Origin: Novosphingobium sp. Chol11
Lineage (GTDB): Bacteria > Pseudomonadota > Alphaproteobacteria > Sphingomonadales > Sphingomonadaceae
Direction: 5' to 3'
DNA: 64,000 bases
Assembly (NCBI RefSeq): GCF_945870625.1
Contig: NZ_CAMBTS010000005.1
Span: forward strand, 1 to 64,000
Shown here: positions 58,126 to 63,825 of the stretch, piece after piece
How positions within the stretch are numbered: the stretch's first letter is position 1
Layout of the letters: the number at the start of each line of letters is the position of its first letter
Translations under genes and position numbers: made by a program
The notes under the pieces: model-generated
What the model saw: the letters and a program-made list of their open reading frames with translations, nothing else
Told to the model about the DNA's origin: nothing
Databases searched by the model: none

Positions 58126-59340
58126 TCAGCGACCCCGCTGCGCCAGCAGGCGAAGGCGCAGCGCATTGAGCTTGATAAAGCCGGCGGCATCCTTCTGATC
58201 ATAAGCGCCCGCATCGTCTTCGAACGTGACGTGCGCTTCAGAATAGAGGCTGTCGGGCGATTTGCGGCCGACGACCGAGGCCACGCCCTTGTATAGCTTG
58301 AGGCGCACGGTGCCGTTGACGCGCGTCTGGCTGTGATCGATCGCCGCCTGCAGCATCTCTCGTTCTGGCGTGAACCAGAAGCCATTGTAGATGAGCTCGG
58401 CGTATTTGGGCATGAGCTCGTCCTTCAGGTGCGCCGCGCCGCGATCAAGCGTGATGCTCTCGATGCCGCGATGCGCGCGGGCATAGATCTCGCCTCCCGG
58501 GGTTTCATACATCCCGCGGCTTTTCATGCCAACGAAACGGTTTTCAACGAGATCGAGCCGCCCGATGCCGTGCCTGCGGCCGAGATCGTTGAGCGCGGCG
58601 AGCAAGGCGGCAGGCGACATCGCCTCGCCATTCAGCGCGGTGCCGTCGCCCTTCTCGAATTCGATGGTGATGTATTCCGGCTGGTCAGGCGCGTCTTCCG
58701 GGTTGACGGTGCGGCTGTAGACGTAGTCCGGCACTTCGGCCCATGGATCTTCGAGCACTTTGCCTTCCGACGAGGTGTGGAGCAGGTTGGCATCGGTCGA
58801 GAACGGGCTTTCGCCGCGCTTGTCGGTGGGCACTGGGATCTGGTGCGCTTCCGCCCAGGCGATGAGGGCGGTGCGGCTGGTCAGGTCCCATTCCCGCCAC
58901 GGCGCAATCACCTTAATGCCGGGATTGAGCGCATAGGCCGAAAGTTCGAAACGGACCTGATCGTTGCCTTTGCCGGTTGCGCCATGCGCGACCGCGTCGG
59001 CACCAGTTTCGCGAGCGATTTCGATCAGACGCTTGGAAATCAGCGGCCGGGCGATTGAGGTGCCGAGCAGGTAATCGCCTTCGTAGCGGGCATTGGCGCG
59101 CATCATCGGAAATACGAAATCGCGAACGAACTCCTCGCGCAGATCATCGACGTAGATATGCTCGGGGCGAACGCCCATCAGCTCGGCTTTGGCGCGCGCA
59201 GGGCCGAGTTCTTCGCCCTGTCCGAGATCGGCCGTGAATGTGACTACCTCGCAGCCATAGGTCACTTGCAGCCATTTCAGGATGACGCTGGTATCGAGGC
59301 CGCCGGAGTAGGCAAGAACAACACGCTTGATATCGGACAT
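58126..59340 (-). CDS. argG: Argininosuccinate synthase
   Basis: [45 protein letters not shown]; ArgG signature. Confidence 0.98.
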
Positions 59341-59458: not shown

Positions 59459-59740
59459 GCCGTGGCGGCACCAGCCCGATCAAACAGGCGCGGCCACGGT
59501 TTCCAGAAAGTGCTTTTTCGTCTCGACTTCAATTCTCAGCGAACACAGCGCGATCGAGGTGATCGCCCTGCGCGGGGTCAGCGGGTCGGGAGTTGGACCT
59601 CCCGACGGATAGCAGCTGCCGGGACATCCCAAGCCCGCGACAACCCTCCGGAGCAATGGCCAATCCGCCTTTCGCGTAACAGGATTAAAGCGCGGTCCGG
59701 TCCGAAACGCGCTGGAGAAGCCTGCCTAGAGGCGCAGGAT
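59459..59740. ncRNA. Hairpin-rich noncoding region, candidate structured RNA (strand and boundaries unknown)
   Basis: Inverted repeats: 59460-59466/59493-59499, 59550-59555/59561-59566, 59585-59592/59599-59606, 59690-59694/59708-59712, 59721-59725/59734-59738; no convincing ORF. Confidence 0.3.
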
Positions 59741-59917
59741 GATTGCCTAAGGTCATCTCTAGATTGCTCGAAATTGGATAGAGATTAACCATTGCTGGCC
59801 GTTTTGGCGCAATGTGAACGGTTCGAGCCTAGCTCAAGGTCCAACGTTGCCACGATCGTCAACGCCTTGCGGGTAGACCCGAAACGGACCTTTCTGCCAA
59901 AATGGAATCAGTTGGAG

Positions 59918-60403
59918 ATGCGCGGTGTCGGACGAACTGACATGATCGGCGCGAGGAGAACAGAAATAGCGGCGACTCATCCTGCGGATGGGCGAACAAC
60001 TCGCCTCTCATCTCGCCAAGCGAGTTGCATCGCGCTTGTCGCCAAAGGCTTTAGCTCAAAGGAGATCGCGCGCGAGCTTGGCATATCGCCATCTACCGTC
60101 GACAACCATATCTCGGCGGCCATGCATGCGGTTGGTTTGGCAAACCGGACTGCATTGGCGAACTGGTACAGTGAAAATCGCGAATCGGGGCACTCGGCTC
60201 CCTATGACAAAGAGCAGCCTGTCAACAGCGGCGCCCCTAGAATTTCAATCTCGCTTCCAGCCATGGGGGGGATTCGCAACTCACTTTCGTTGATGGAAAG
60301 AGTTTTCTCTGTTCTGCAGATCATTACTGTGTCGATAATGGCTGCATCTTCCCTGATTCTCGTCGTTCTTGTTTTGATCTTTTTCACGAACTGGTCTAAG
60401 TGA
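59918..60403 (+). CDS. LuxR/FixJ-type HTH regulator with C-terminal transmembrane helix
   Basis: TTRLSSRQASCIALVAKGFSSKEIARELGISPSTVDNHISAAMHAVGLANRTALANWY (LuxR HTH) and C-terminal VFSVLQIITVSIMAASSLILVVLVLIFFTNWSK. Start uncertain (TTG 59792, ATG 59918 or ATG 59942). Confidence 0.85.
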   Translation: MRGVGRTDMIGARRTEIAATHPADGRTTRLSSRQASCIALVAKGFSSKEIARELGISPSTVDNHISAAMHAVGLANRTALANWYSENRESGHSAPYDKEQPVNSGAPRISISLPAMGGIRNSLSLMERVFSVLQIITVSIMAASSLILVVLVLIFFTNWSK

Positions 60404-60412
60404 TTGTATAAT
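60383..60412 (+). promoter_or_regulatory. Candidate sigma-70-type promoter of the 114-aa ORF
   Basis: TTCACG (60383-60388), 18-bp spacer, TATAAT (60407-60412); the -10 lies within the inverted repeat TGATT-GTAT-AATCA (60401-60414). Confidence 0.5.
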
Positions 60413-60445
60413 CATGGCTCCTCTAAAGGAAGATAGGAGTTGTCC

Positions 60446-60787
60446 ATGATCAACTTTCGTGAAGCATCGGTCCGCGTCGTCACCAATGATGCTCAGGAAA
60501 TGAATGGCGCGATCGATCAGGCGCTGATCCAGCAAATGCGCCTTGCGACGAGCTTCATCGAAGCCACGCAGGAATCGCACCTTGCCATGCCGCTCACCCA
60601 GCCAGCCCTGCAAGCCATGGCCGAAGGCCTCGGCTGCTTGGTCGCGAGCCGGGAAAAGGTCTCTGACTCGATCCGCGAAATGAACCGCCTGTTGGCCCAC
60701 AGCAACCTCAAGGAGACCAATTTTGGCTGCCCGATCGGGATCTGGAAGCTTGTTTCAACCTCCAAACCCGAGCGCGCGGTAGCGTAA
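60446..60787 (+). CDS. Hypothetical soluble protein
   Basis: ATG with AGGAG 6 nt upstream; MINFREASVRVVTNDAQEMNGAIDQALIQQMRLATSFIEATQESHLAMPLTQPALQAMAEGLGCLVASREKVSDSIREMN. Confidence 0.8.
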   Translation: MINFREASVRVVTNDAQEMNGAIDQALIQQMRLATSFIEATQESHLAMPLTQPALQAMAEGLGCLVASREKVSDSIREMNRLLAHSNLKETNFGCPIGIWKLVSTSKPERAVA

Positions 60788-60809
60788 CGGCGGCGAAGGG
60801 AGTGCAGGA

Positions 60810-61244
60810 TTGCTGAACGTCATCGTATTTGTTCTTTTCTGGCTCAATCTGTTTTGCAACCTAGCGGCGGCATTTGCTTACGGGCTCGTTCTGGAACGAG
60901 CGATAGCCGCAGGACTGGTTGCGATCAGTGTTGTGTTGGTTGCGATGAGCTTGATGATGACGACCAGCGATTTGGCGTATCTGTCAATTTTTTCAGATTG
61001 CTTCATTTTGCTGGTCGCCTGGTCCCTTGCACTCACTTCGGATCGCTATTGGCCAATCTGGTTTGCAGCGATGCAAACTCTGACGGTCGCGACTTTGGCC
61101 TTGACCCCGACGCAGGCCGGAATGCCGCAATTCATCCTTTTGAACCTTGCGGGGTTCTGGTCTTTGCCTGCGTTGCTGGTGATGACCTGGGGCACGATAC
61201 TGGACTGGCGGGAGCGTGCTTCCGCCAGTCCTTCCTCGGTGTAA
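60810..61244 (+). CDS. Hypothetical multi-pass membrane protein
   Basis: TTG start after GGAG; several hydrophobic segments (MLNVIVFVLFWLNLFCNLAAAFAYG...LVAISVVLVAMSLMM...FILLVAWSLAL...LPALLVMTWGTI). Confidence 0.72.
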   Translation: MLNVIVFVLFWLNLFCNLAAAFAYGLVLERAIAAGLVAISVVLVAMSLMMTTSDLAYLSIFSDCFILLVAWSLALTSDRYWPIWFAAMQTLTVATLALTPTQAGMPQFILLNLAGFWSLPALLVMTWGTILDWRERASASPSSV

Positions 61245-61283: not shown

Positions 61284-62534
61284 TCAGGCCGGAAGCTGTC
61301 GCAGCGCGGCGTAGCGATCTTCAGCTATCCCGATGTAATTGCGGGTAAGGGGCAAGGCATCGCGATTGCGCACCAATTGAAGCTGGAAATTGACCAGATC
61401 GCCATATTCGAACGCGGTGGCCGCCCCTGCGAGGTAGAATAGCCACATCCGGGTGAAGCGCGCGTCGTAAAGCTCTGTCAGGCGCGCTTCATGGGCCACG
61501 CAGCGCGCGTACCATTCGCGCAAAGTGGGTGCATAATGACGCCGTAGCACTTCGCAATCAGTTAGCATCAGCTTGCACGGTTCGACCGCGCGCATCGTCT
61601 CGCTGAGAGCCGGAATATAGCCGCCGGGAAAAATGTATTTCCGGGTGAAATCGTCGGTGATGCCGGGAGGCCCTGAACGGCCGATCGTATGCAGCAGCAT
61701 CACGCCCTGATCTTCGAGAAGATTGTGACATTTGCTGAAAAATGACGGGAAATTGGGCACGCCGACATGCTCGAACATGCCCACCGACACGATCCGGTCA
61801 AACCGCCCGGGCACATCGCGGTAATCTATCAGCTCGAACGTAACCTTGTCCGCGACGCCCTCCCGCGCTGCCCACGCTTTGGCATAGGCGATCTGCTCGG
61901 TGCTGAGCGAGATGCCATGAACCGCAGCGCCAGAAATCCGGTGCAGATGCAGCGCAAGGCCGCCCCAGCCGCAGCCGATATCGAGGACCTGCATGTCCGG
62001 CGCGAGCGTCAGCTTGGCAGCGATGTGATCCATTTTAGCAAGCTGGGCCTCCTCCAGCGAGCTGACCCCGTCGGCCCAGTAGGCGCACGAATATTGGCGG
62101 TTGGGATCAAGGAAGAGATCGTAGAGGCGGTCGTCCAGATCATAATGGTGCGCCACATTGCGGCGTGATGAGGCGCGTTGGTTGACCTGATCGATTCGGT
62201 TCATGATCGCGACGCGGATTTTTTCAATCATGCCAAGATTGTCGAGATCGCCAGCTTTATCCCACGGGTTGTTGCGCCGGATGAAGCCGACAAAATCCAT
62301 GATATCGCCGCCCTCGATCGTGAGGCGACCGTTCATGAACGCCTCGCCCATGCCAAGGCTGGGGTTGCGCGCAAGGGCGCCTGGAACGCCCTTGTCATGG
62401 AAATGCAGGCCCAGATCGGGCCAGCCCGCTGTGGCCATGCCATAGCGGTGTGCGCGGCCCGAGGCTTCCGTCACGGTCAGGGTGCCATGCGTAACCAGAC
62501 GTTTAAGCGCGGCACCGAGCAGGAGCATGCTCAT
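61284..62534 (-). CDS. Cyclopropane-fatty-acyl-phospholipid synthase family SAM methyltransferase (copy 1)
   Basis: RQYSCAYW, VLDIGCGWGGLALHLH, VSVGMFEHVG, LLHTIG, EWYARC: CFAS family motifs. Confidence 0.93.
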   Translation of the reverse strand: MSMLLLGAALKRLVTHGTLTVTEASGRAHRYGMATAGWPDLGLHFHDKGVPGALARNPSLGMGEAFMNGRLTIEGGDIMDFVGFIRRNNPWDKAGDLDNLGMIEKIRVAIMNRIDQVNQRASSRRNVAHHYDLDDRLYDLFLDPNRQYSCAYWADGVSSLEEAQLAKMDHIAAKLTLAPDMQVLDIGCGWGGLALHLHRISGAAVHGISLSTEQIAYAKAWAAREGVADKVTFELIDYRDVPGRFDRIVSVGMFEHVGVPNFPSFFSKCHNLLEDQGVMLLHTIGRSGPPGITDDFTRKYIFPGGYIPALSETMRAVEPCKLMLTDCEVLRRHYAPTLREWYARCVAHEARLTELYDARFTRMWLFYLAGAATAFEYGDLVNFQLQLVRNRDALPLTRNYIGIAEDRYAALRQLPA

Positions 62535-62547
62535 CGACGGGCGGTCC

Positions 62548-63825
62548 TCAGCCCTTTGGTTCGAGATGCCACTGCGGCGCCTCATCGAGCGCGGCCAACC
62601 GCGCGGTTTCTTGCTGGATGTAGTCCCGCGTCATCGGCAGGACGCCATGTTTCTTGACCGTCTGGACATGAAAATTGACCAGATTGCCGCTGCGAAAGCC
62701 TTGCTCGGCCCCCACCAGATAGAATTGCCACATGCGGAACATCCGGGCGTCGAACATGGCAGTAATCTCTGCCTGATGCAGCGTCGTGCGGCGATACCAT
62801 TCCGCCAGCGTATAGGCATAGTGGGTGCGCAGGATCTCGAAGTCTGCGACTTTCCAGCCGGTCCGCTCGGTCGCGGTGAGCACTTCGCTCATTGCTGGCA
62901 GGTGATGGCCTGGAAAAATGTAGGTGCGGGCCCATTTGTCGGTCGGCCCTGGTTCGCCCGCGCGGCCGATGGTGTGGGTCAGCATCACTCCGTCTTCGGC
63001 CAGCAAGCTGTGCGTTTTGGAGAAGTACTCTTTGTAGTGCGGCGCGCCGAGATGTTCGATCATGCCGACGCTGGAGATGCGATCGAAGGTGCCGGTGACG
63101 TCGCGATAATCCATCAGCTGGAATTTGACCTTATCCGCCACGCCAGCCGCAGCGGCGCGCTCGTTGGCAAAGGCCACTTGATCGGGTGCCAAGCTGACGC
63201 CGAGAACCTCGCAGCCGAAATGGTGGTGGAAGTAGAGTCCGAGCCCGCCCCAACCACAGCCGATATCGAGTACCCGCATGCCGGGGCCAAGCTGCAACTT
63301 GGCGGCAATCAATGCCTTCTTGTCGATCTGCGCGCGTTCCAGACTGTTTGCCGGATCGCGGAAGTAGGCCATTGAATAGACCCGGTCCACATCAAGGAAA
63401 AGTTCATAGAACTGCCGATTAAGGCCATAATGATGCAGGACATTCTTGCTCGACCGCGAGATGAAGTTGATCTGATCGAGCCGGGACTCTAGCTTATCGA
63501 AAAGTTGGCGCAGCAACCCGCGGGGTTTGAACGCGCTGCCTTCCCGATTGCCCTGGCCCATAATGTAGAGCACGAAGTCGCGCACATCGTGCGGCGGTTC
63601 GACCACCAGCCGGCCATCCATGTAGGCCTCACCGGCGCCGAGCCGCGGGTTTTTCGCGATGTGCAGCGCTGTGCCTTTATCGGTGAAGCGGATGCGCATG
63701 GGTTCGCCCGAACCGTCGCCATACTCGTATTGCGTCCCATCATGGTCGGTCACGATGAATCGGCCGGCCTTTACCAGTGGACGAAGCAATTTATCCAGTA
63801 GCCACATCGACTTCACCCCATACAC
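62548..63825 (-). CDS. Cyclopropane-fatty-acyl-phospholipid synthase family SAM methyltransferase (copy 2)
   Basis: RVYSMAYF, VLDIGCGWGGLGLYFH, SSVGMIEHLG, LTHTIG, EWYRRT: CFAS family with variant first motif. Start may be 63807. Confidence 0.92.
   Translation of the reverse strand: MYGVKSMWLLDKLLRPLVKAGRFIVTDHDGTQYEYGDGSGEPMRIRFTDKGTALHIAKNPRLGAGEAYMDGRLVVEPPHDVRDFVLYIMGQGNREGSAFKPRGLLRQLFDKLESRLDQINFISRSSKNVLHHYGLNRQFYELFLDVDRVYSMAYFRDPANSLERAQIDKKALIAAKLQLGPGMRVLDIGCGWGGLGLYFHHHFGCEVLGVSLAPDQVAFANERAAAAGVADKVKFQLMDYRDVTGTFDRISSVGMIEHLGAPHYKEYFSKTHSLLAEDGVMLTHTIGRAGEPGPTDKWARTYIFPGHHLPAMSEVLTATERTGWKVADFEILRTHYAYTLAEWYRRTTLHQAEITAMFDARMFRMWQFYLVGAEQGFRSGNLVNFHVQTVKKHGVLPMTRDYIQQETARLAALDEAPQWHLEPKG

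Follow-up and report, generated by a model that had tools for sequence, protein, structure and literature searches.

The LytTR Regulatory Systems, for example HdrRM and BrsRM of Streptococcus mutans, consist of a regulator and a membrane inhibitor, with direct repeats located 5' of the autoregulated operon (PMC6193735). Among the transmembrane transcription regulators, for which a survey is available (PMC10269533), each of ToxR, CadC and TcpP is one protein with a DNA-binding domain and a single helix that spans the membrane. In ToxR/ToxS and VtrA/VtrC the gene of a membrane-bound regulator lies beside that of a membrane partner and the cassettes are spread; the partners meet in the periplasm, VtrA/VtrC being a periplasmic receptor (PMC9214523). 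The GerE-type helix-turn-helix (HTH) is also present in AHL-type LuxR regulators and in LuxR solos of sphingomonad hosts such as LuxR402 (PMC10413115). Here we describe a cassette of three genes from Novosphingobium sp. Chol11, designated P1, P2 and P3, and compare it with these systems. No published description of the cassette was found in the literature searched, most subscription journals lying outside it.

The stretch of DNA analysed (the window) comprised 64,000 nt and the coordinates of its features are given in Table 1. As initially annotated, three consecutive open reading frames were present on one strand, and all three reading frames are open in the window copy. The start of P1 had been placed at TTG 59792, which is too early, since relatives start approximately 12-14 residues before the HTH. 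When the starts of the relatives were used, the homologous start in the window lay near ATG 59942, its exact position being the ATA codon 59966, and AGGAGA (59954-59959) stands 6 nt before this codon. Judged from the sequence, the true start is probably either ATG 59942 or ATA 59966. The ATA codon could be a possible start or a decayed ATG. For P2, the good Shine-Dalgarno sequence reported earlier was found as AGGAG, but its length was 113 aa from ATG 60446 and not 114 aa. The start codon of P3 is TTG 60810.

Table 1. Features of the P1-P2-P3 locus and of related loci
Feature	Position	Strand	Basis or remark
argG	58126-59340	-	upstream flank of the trio; name from sequence recognition
Conserved block, multibranched RNA fold, 5' of P1	59576..59691	+	alignment and RNAalifold
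Three degenerate ~11-bp phased repeats, candidate operator 5' of P1	59757..59787	+	alignment with orthologues
P1, LuxR/FixJ-type HTH and C-terminal tail anchor (predicted)	59942..60403	+	153 aa from ATG 59942; GerE match, 56-homologue alignment
P1 transmembrane segment codons (predicted), VSIMAASSLILVVLVLIFF, then tail TNWSK (5 residues)	60329..60385	+	hydrophobicity
P2, soluble protein, predicted helical hairpin	60446..60787	+	AlphaFold2; 55 homologues aligned
P3, membrane protein, five predicted helices	60810..61244	+	AlphaFold2; loop conservation
Two cyclopropane-fatty-acid-synthase-like genes (cfa)	61284-63816	-	downstream flank; names from sequence recognition
Second cassette of the window genome, L129, near rpsL	contig C14:26700-28900	-	P1 frameshifted before anchor; P3 in-frame stop
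RadC-type JAB gene after P3, plasmid locus	L113:8503-9348		Pfam winged helix
RadC-type JAB gene after P3, plasmid locus	L114:8606-9418		matches P4 profile
RadC-type JAB gene after P3, plasmid locus	L118:8594-9433		Pfam winged helix
Family f53, full trio	L133
Family f53, P1-P3 pair	L132
Family f53, P2 with P3	L134
Family f53, P2-P2-P3	L130, L131

The trio had been described as less GC-rich than the surrounding DNA, and this was also what we found (approximately 0.55 across the trio vs approximately 0.60 in the flanks). The cassettes of relatives were AT-richer than their own flanks in 40 of 48 cases, with a mean difference of -2.9 points, and such a GC dip is typical of these cassettes. Low GC as a sign of recent import was rejected, because a composition richer in AT than that of the flanks was seen in most cassettes and, among the species examined, the position between argG and cfa was stable. 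Purifying selection acts on all three genes, the pN/pS-based omega against orthologues being mostly approximately 0.2-0.5. Since these values were found in all three genes and the order P1-P2-P3 on one strand was kept in 53 of 53 non-redundant cassettes, the trio is more than a chance arrangement.

The initial annotation had called the trio an orphan, which was wrong, as the set is widespread. Profiles of P2 and P3 each matched 76 of the 151 genomes of the order, and these were the same genomes for both, all in the window's family. The co-occurrence of the homologues in other genomes, on which the annotation had made its reading depend, was thereby found, and its suggestion of a conserved uncharacterised set was supported by the shared genomes, by the conserved neighbourhood and by the lack of convincing families for P2 and P3. 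When the whole genomes of 60 relatives were searched, several members of the window's genus proved to have the three genes next to one another. P2 was located immediately 5' of P3 on the same strand for 99 of 105 P3 genes, with a median gap of 86 bp as measured between matched stretches. When the P1 profile was applied to 101 genomes, 51 full-length tail-anchored LuxR proteins were recovered and P3 was present within 1.5 kb downstream in 50 of them. Each carrying genome had one to four copies of the cassette. The distances of P1, P2 and P3 were correlated (Mantel r 0.78-0.83, reached in 0 of 2000 permutations, host phylogeny not subtracted), consistent with inheritance as a unit. P2 used alone as the query on genome contigs gave no loci, being too divergent for that method.

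Among 290 genomes of the class, cassette genes outside the window's family were detected only in one further family (f53, Table 1). In two of its loci, L130 and L131, the P2-P2-P3 genes are followed by what was judged from sequence to be an XRE/S24-type regulator in place of the LuxR protein, and the P2/P3 pair thus again seems to stand beside a regulator. These P2-P2-P3 (and P3-P3) sets without a LuxR protein lie behind two thioesterase-like genes. P1-P3 pairs without P2 were found at four loci (L081, L115, L117 and L132). Because such rare natural pairs occur, P1 and P3 are taken to be the core of the module.

The LuxR/FixJ HTH recognised earlier in the first reading frame was confirmed for P1 by a match to Pfam GerE (E = 8e-14). 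P1 also ends, as had been noted, in a hydrophobic helix followed by TNWSK, a predicted anchor whose best 19-residue window, VSIMAASSLILVVLVLIFF, had a mean of 2.85 on the Kyte-Doolittle scale and of 2.46 on the GES scale. With a Kyte-Doolittle mean of at least 1.6 over 19 residues as the threshold, an anchor was predicted in 53 of 53 cassette P1 proteins, although the family profile itself includes the anchor and anchorless families could escape it. In 52 of the 53 the anchor window was inside the last 45 residues. Membrane insertion of this segment, the other condition set by the annotation, was thereby supported at the level of prediction. None of 24 non-cassette LuxR-type proteins found as controls with the same query had such a segment; a 25th control, L081, had one and is itself part of a P1-P3 pair. 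An excess of K/R was observed on the N-terminal side of the helix in 35 of 57 proteins and on the C-terminal side in 5 of 57, and the tail after the predicted helix had a median length of 9 residues. Because of this charge distribution and the short tail, the HTH is predicted to be inside, with almost nothing outside.

P1 homologues are 138-200 aa long with the HTH close to the N terminus. With a DNA-binding domain and at least one predicted membrane segment in one protein, P1 falls among the one-component transmembrane transcription regulators and is in this respect like ToxR, CadC and TcpP (PMC10269533). In contrast to these, P1 has no extracytoplasmic C-terminal sensor domain of the ToxR/CadC type, too few residues being left after the helix, and it is nearly always (50/51) paired with P3 and usually with P2. 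P1 is also unlike the AHL-type LuxR regulators, since no autoinducer-binding domain was found among the Pfam matches shown. No receiver domain was present among the profile matches shown, and P1 is thus not classed as a NarL/FixJ response regulator; no LytTR domain was present among the families shown, in which P1 is GerE. LuxR402 was rejected as a relative of P1, as it is 291 aa long and the term 'transmembrane' is absent from its paper (PMC10413115). RcgA/RcgR was considered as a comparison and set aside.

In agreement with the earlier statement that the second protein has no recognisable family, P2 gave no convincing match in Pfam, NCBIfam and PHROGs, and the same was found for P3. AlphaFold2 models of both were built from alignments without the plasmid rows. 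P2 was predicted to form a long helical hairpin (helices 6-44 and 48-84; mean pLDDT 84, most of the hairpin >90) followed by a tail which is predicted to be disordered and bears an FGCP motif. The third protein had been described as small and polytopic, which fits P3 with its 144 aa and five predicted helices (pLDDT 94.3, pTM 0.84). Fold searches of the PDB with the P2 and P3 models gave no match at E<=0.001, and P3 had no match to PDB sequences. When the model of P3 was compared with viral structures, the top matches were uncharacterised phage membrane proteins and were not significant (best E 0.065); a protein of Caulobacter phage phiCbK (TM 0.71, E 0.15) is a lead only. No match was obtained by tblastn of P3 against phage records.

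The two loops of P3 predicted to be cytoplasmic, with sides assigned from K/R content and helix count, were more conserved (2.38 and 2.88 bits) than the other two, periplasmic loops (1.03 and 1.26 bits). G25 is invariant, and D63, R79, W81, P82 and G128 are near-invariant. The position of the conserved loops suggests that P3 docks a partner in the cytoplasm and not a ligand from outside; the loops GGxPER and DRxWP would be candidate docking sites. The cassette resembles ToxR/ToxS and VtrA/VtrC in that the gene of a regulator, here predicted to be membrane-bound, lies beside that of a membrane partner and in its spread as a unit (PMC9214523). Unlike in those systems, the conserved surface of the partner is predicted to face the cytoplasm, and almost no part of P1 would lie outside.

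The window belongs to an orthologous subgroup of six species with P2 identity of at least 63%. In one of these genomes (G165), six CTGGAGAT-like repeats lie 5' of P1 with spacings of 11, 11, 11, 10 and 11 bp. Similar arrays were found in G033, G502 and G508, and the array is degenerate in G009 and in the window. The window copies of CTGGAGATCG are CTCTAGATTG (start 59757), CTCGAAATTG (59767) and ATAGAGATTA (59778); they were recognised only by alignment, every copy differing from TGGAGAT by more than 1 mismatch. Exact TGGAGAT-N3/4-TGGAGAT pairs occurred 8 times in the six subgroup genomes, all 8 just 5' of P1, and a reversed control pattern gave 0 pairs in the same genomes. That the exact pairs stand solely 5' of P1 suggests a dedicated candidate operator and thus autoregulation. 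Other cassette subgroups yielded nothing like this array, and a search around the array for a sigma-70-like promoter gave none. The array in helical phase is also what would be expected if several anchored copies of P1 faced one way, and together with a tail too short for sensing outside this would fit an anchor that merely positions a chromosome or locus at the membrane, with P2 and P3 as structural partners and little or no gene regulation. We regard this as very improbable, since proteins with a LuxR-type HTH are typically transcription factors, the array sits in P1's own upstream region and a second DNA-binding protein, P4, often follows the cassette.

Between argG and P1, a further block of approximately 100 nt (59576-59691) was conserved in the six species. 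RNAalifold with 7 sequences gave a multibranched fold with compensatory changes at 6 pairs, and no Rfam match was obtained. From these alignments the block is possibly an uncatalogued structured RNA. A related copy was found 5' of a P1-P2-P3 cassette in G637; another, in G113, lies 5' of an S46-peptidase-like gene and not of a cassette, and a weak copy in G822 lies in a mobile-element-like stretch, also not 5' of a cassette. The link of the block to the cassette is uncertain.

P4, a MarR-like winged-helix protein, was encoded directly 3' of the cassette in 22 of the 56 loci examined and was absent from the window and the closest relatives examined. Neighbours other than P4 vary by locus or recur only in few related loci, and no recurrent target gene was found beside the cassettes. 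With P3 of the window as the query no match was obtained in plasmids, and a divergent member of the P3 family recovered 12 sphingomonad plasmids; the named cassette-bearing plasmids are from Novosphingobium, Sphingopyxis, Blastomonas, Sphingobium and Sphingomonas, hosts which indicate that the family of the cassette is the Sphingomonadaceae. The cassettes of pBSY18_2 and pMC4 adjoin mobF and are oriented divergently from trbB. The fourth gene on these two plasmids and on pMI2 encodes a RadC-JAB protein, with a fused MarR-like winged helix on pBSY18_2 and pMI2, both of which were scanned with Pfam. Plasmid Spl of Novosphingobium sp. PP1Y carries P1 and P3 without P2, near mating-pair genes. Such surroundings, and the fusion of P4 to the RadC/JAB domain, could indicate a transfer-control module of sphingomonad plasmids and integrative elements with chromosomal descendants, in which P1 would regulate the divergent trb operon. 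This origin of the cassette seems unlikely to us, as most cassettes have chromosome-like surroundings without transfer genes and the place of the cassette between argG and cfa is kept from species to species.

The second cassette of the window genome (Table 1) appears from its sequence to be decayed, though sequencing error is possible in this draft assembly of 179 contigs; its P2 and P4 are open. An in-frame stop in P3 beside an intact P2 might be expected of a toxin-antitoxin or addiction module, with P3 as a membrane toxin, P2 as the antitoxin, P1 (and P4) as the autoregulator, and persistence because loss is punished. A patchy distribution with shifting locations, plasmid copies adjoining conjugation genes and a dedicated repeat array upstream could be explained in the same way. 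However, P1 of the decayed copy is frameshifted as well, and the natural P1-P3 pairs without P2 would amount to a toxin without antitoxin. P3 is also a large protein in which a Gly is invariant and Asp, Arg, Trp and Pro are nearly so, and purifying selection acts on it; a membrane-tethered regulator, too, is unexpected in such modules. When the proteins were compared with the defence models of PADLOC, P2 had no match, P1 had matches only in the HTH region and none at full length, and the single weak match, of a plasmid P3 (E 0.004), covered a partial stretch of the profile. We therefore consider an addiction module improbable.

The membrane-linked sensing module suggested by the initial annotation was partly supported, as to the conserved set and the predicted anchor. 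The reading we favour, with moderate confidence, is that the trio is a self-contained, membrane-linked and autoregulated transcription switch which moves between genomes as a unit and works like a LytTR Regulatory System. P1 would sit in the inner membrane through its last helix, with the HTH in the cytoplasm and few residues outside. P3 would be its polytopic membrane partner, with the conserved residues facing the cytoplasm, and most likely docks P1 and/or P2 on that side; depending on a membrane or metabolic signal, it may keep P1 in a single state of activity. P2, the soluble hairpin, could act between the two as an adaptor or an antagonist. Once released by P3, P1 would bind its own promoter, in the window's subgroup at the phased repeats of 11 bp, and would change how the cassette and few or unspecified targets are expressed, as in LytTR Regulatory Systems. 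We infer the interactions among the three proteins, the direction of control and the autoregulation; the picture in which P1 acts at the membrane and is held by P3, P2 serving as the adaptor, is drawn from layout, conservation and precedent. The confinement of the repeat array to one orthologous subgroup of six species, and its degenerate state in the window, were counted against the switch, as were the negative promoter search near the array and the absence of a recurrent neighbouring target.

Like the LytTR Regulatory Systems, the cassette combines a DNA-binding regulator with a polytopic membrane protein in what looks like an operon, P3 adjoining P1 in 50 of 51 cases. Direct repeats upstream may be a further parallel, the arrays being seen in one subgroup and degenerate in the window. 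Both have a wide, uncharacterised distribution (PMC6193735). In contrast to those systems, the regulator is of the GerE/LuxR and not the LytTR type and is itself predicted to be membrane-anchored, P3 matches no named family, a soluble P2 and often P4 are added, and the repeats are multi-copy arrays with a period of approximately 11 bp rather than a pair 12 bp apart. Because the regulator and membrane protein are unrelated and there is an extra soluble protein, the cassette was filed as working like a LytTR Regulatory System and not as a member. More tentatively, and at a little under even confidence, it may represent an undescribed signalling system in which a tail-anchored LuxR-type regulator is controlled in the plane of the membrane by the five-helix P3, of unassigned fold, via the hairpin adaptor P2 and acts on an operator of its own that is helically phased, the whole being dispersed within the Sphingomonadaceae on plasmids as well as chromosomes.

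About half of the genomes sampled from the order, all belonging to one ecologically important family, thus carry a regulatory cassette. The libraries searched yielded no convincing family for its P2 or P3, and it is probably an undescribed, self-regulating switch. If P1 truly works while anchored in the membrane and has no sensor on the outside, P3 must be the route by which the signal is read, either within the membrane or beneath it. If true, this would be a testable and unusual coupling of membrane state to transcription.
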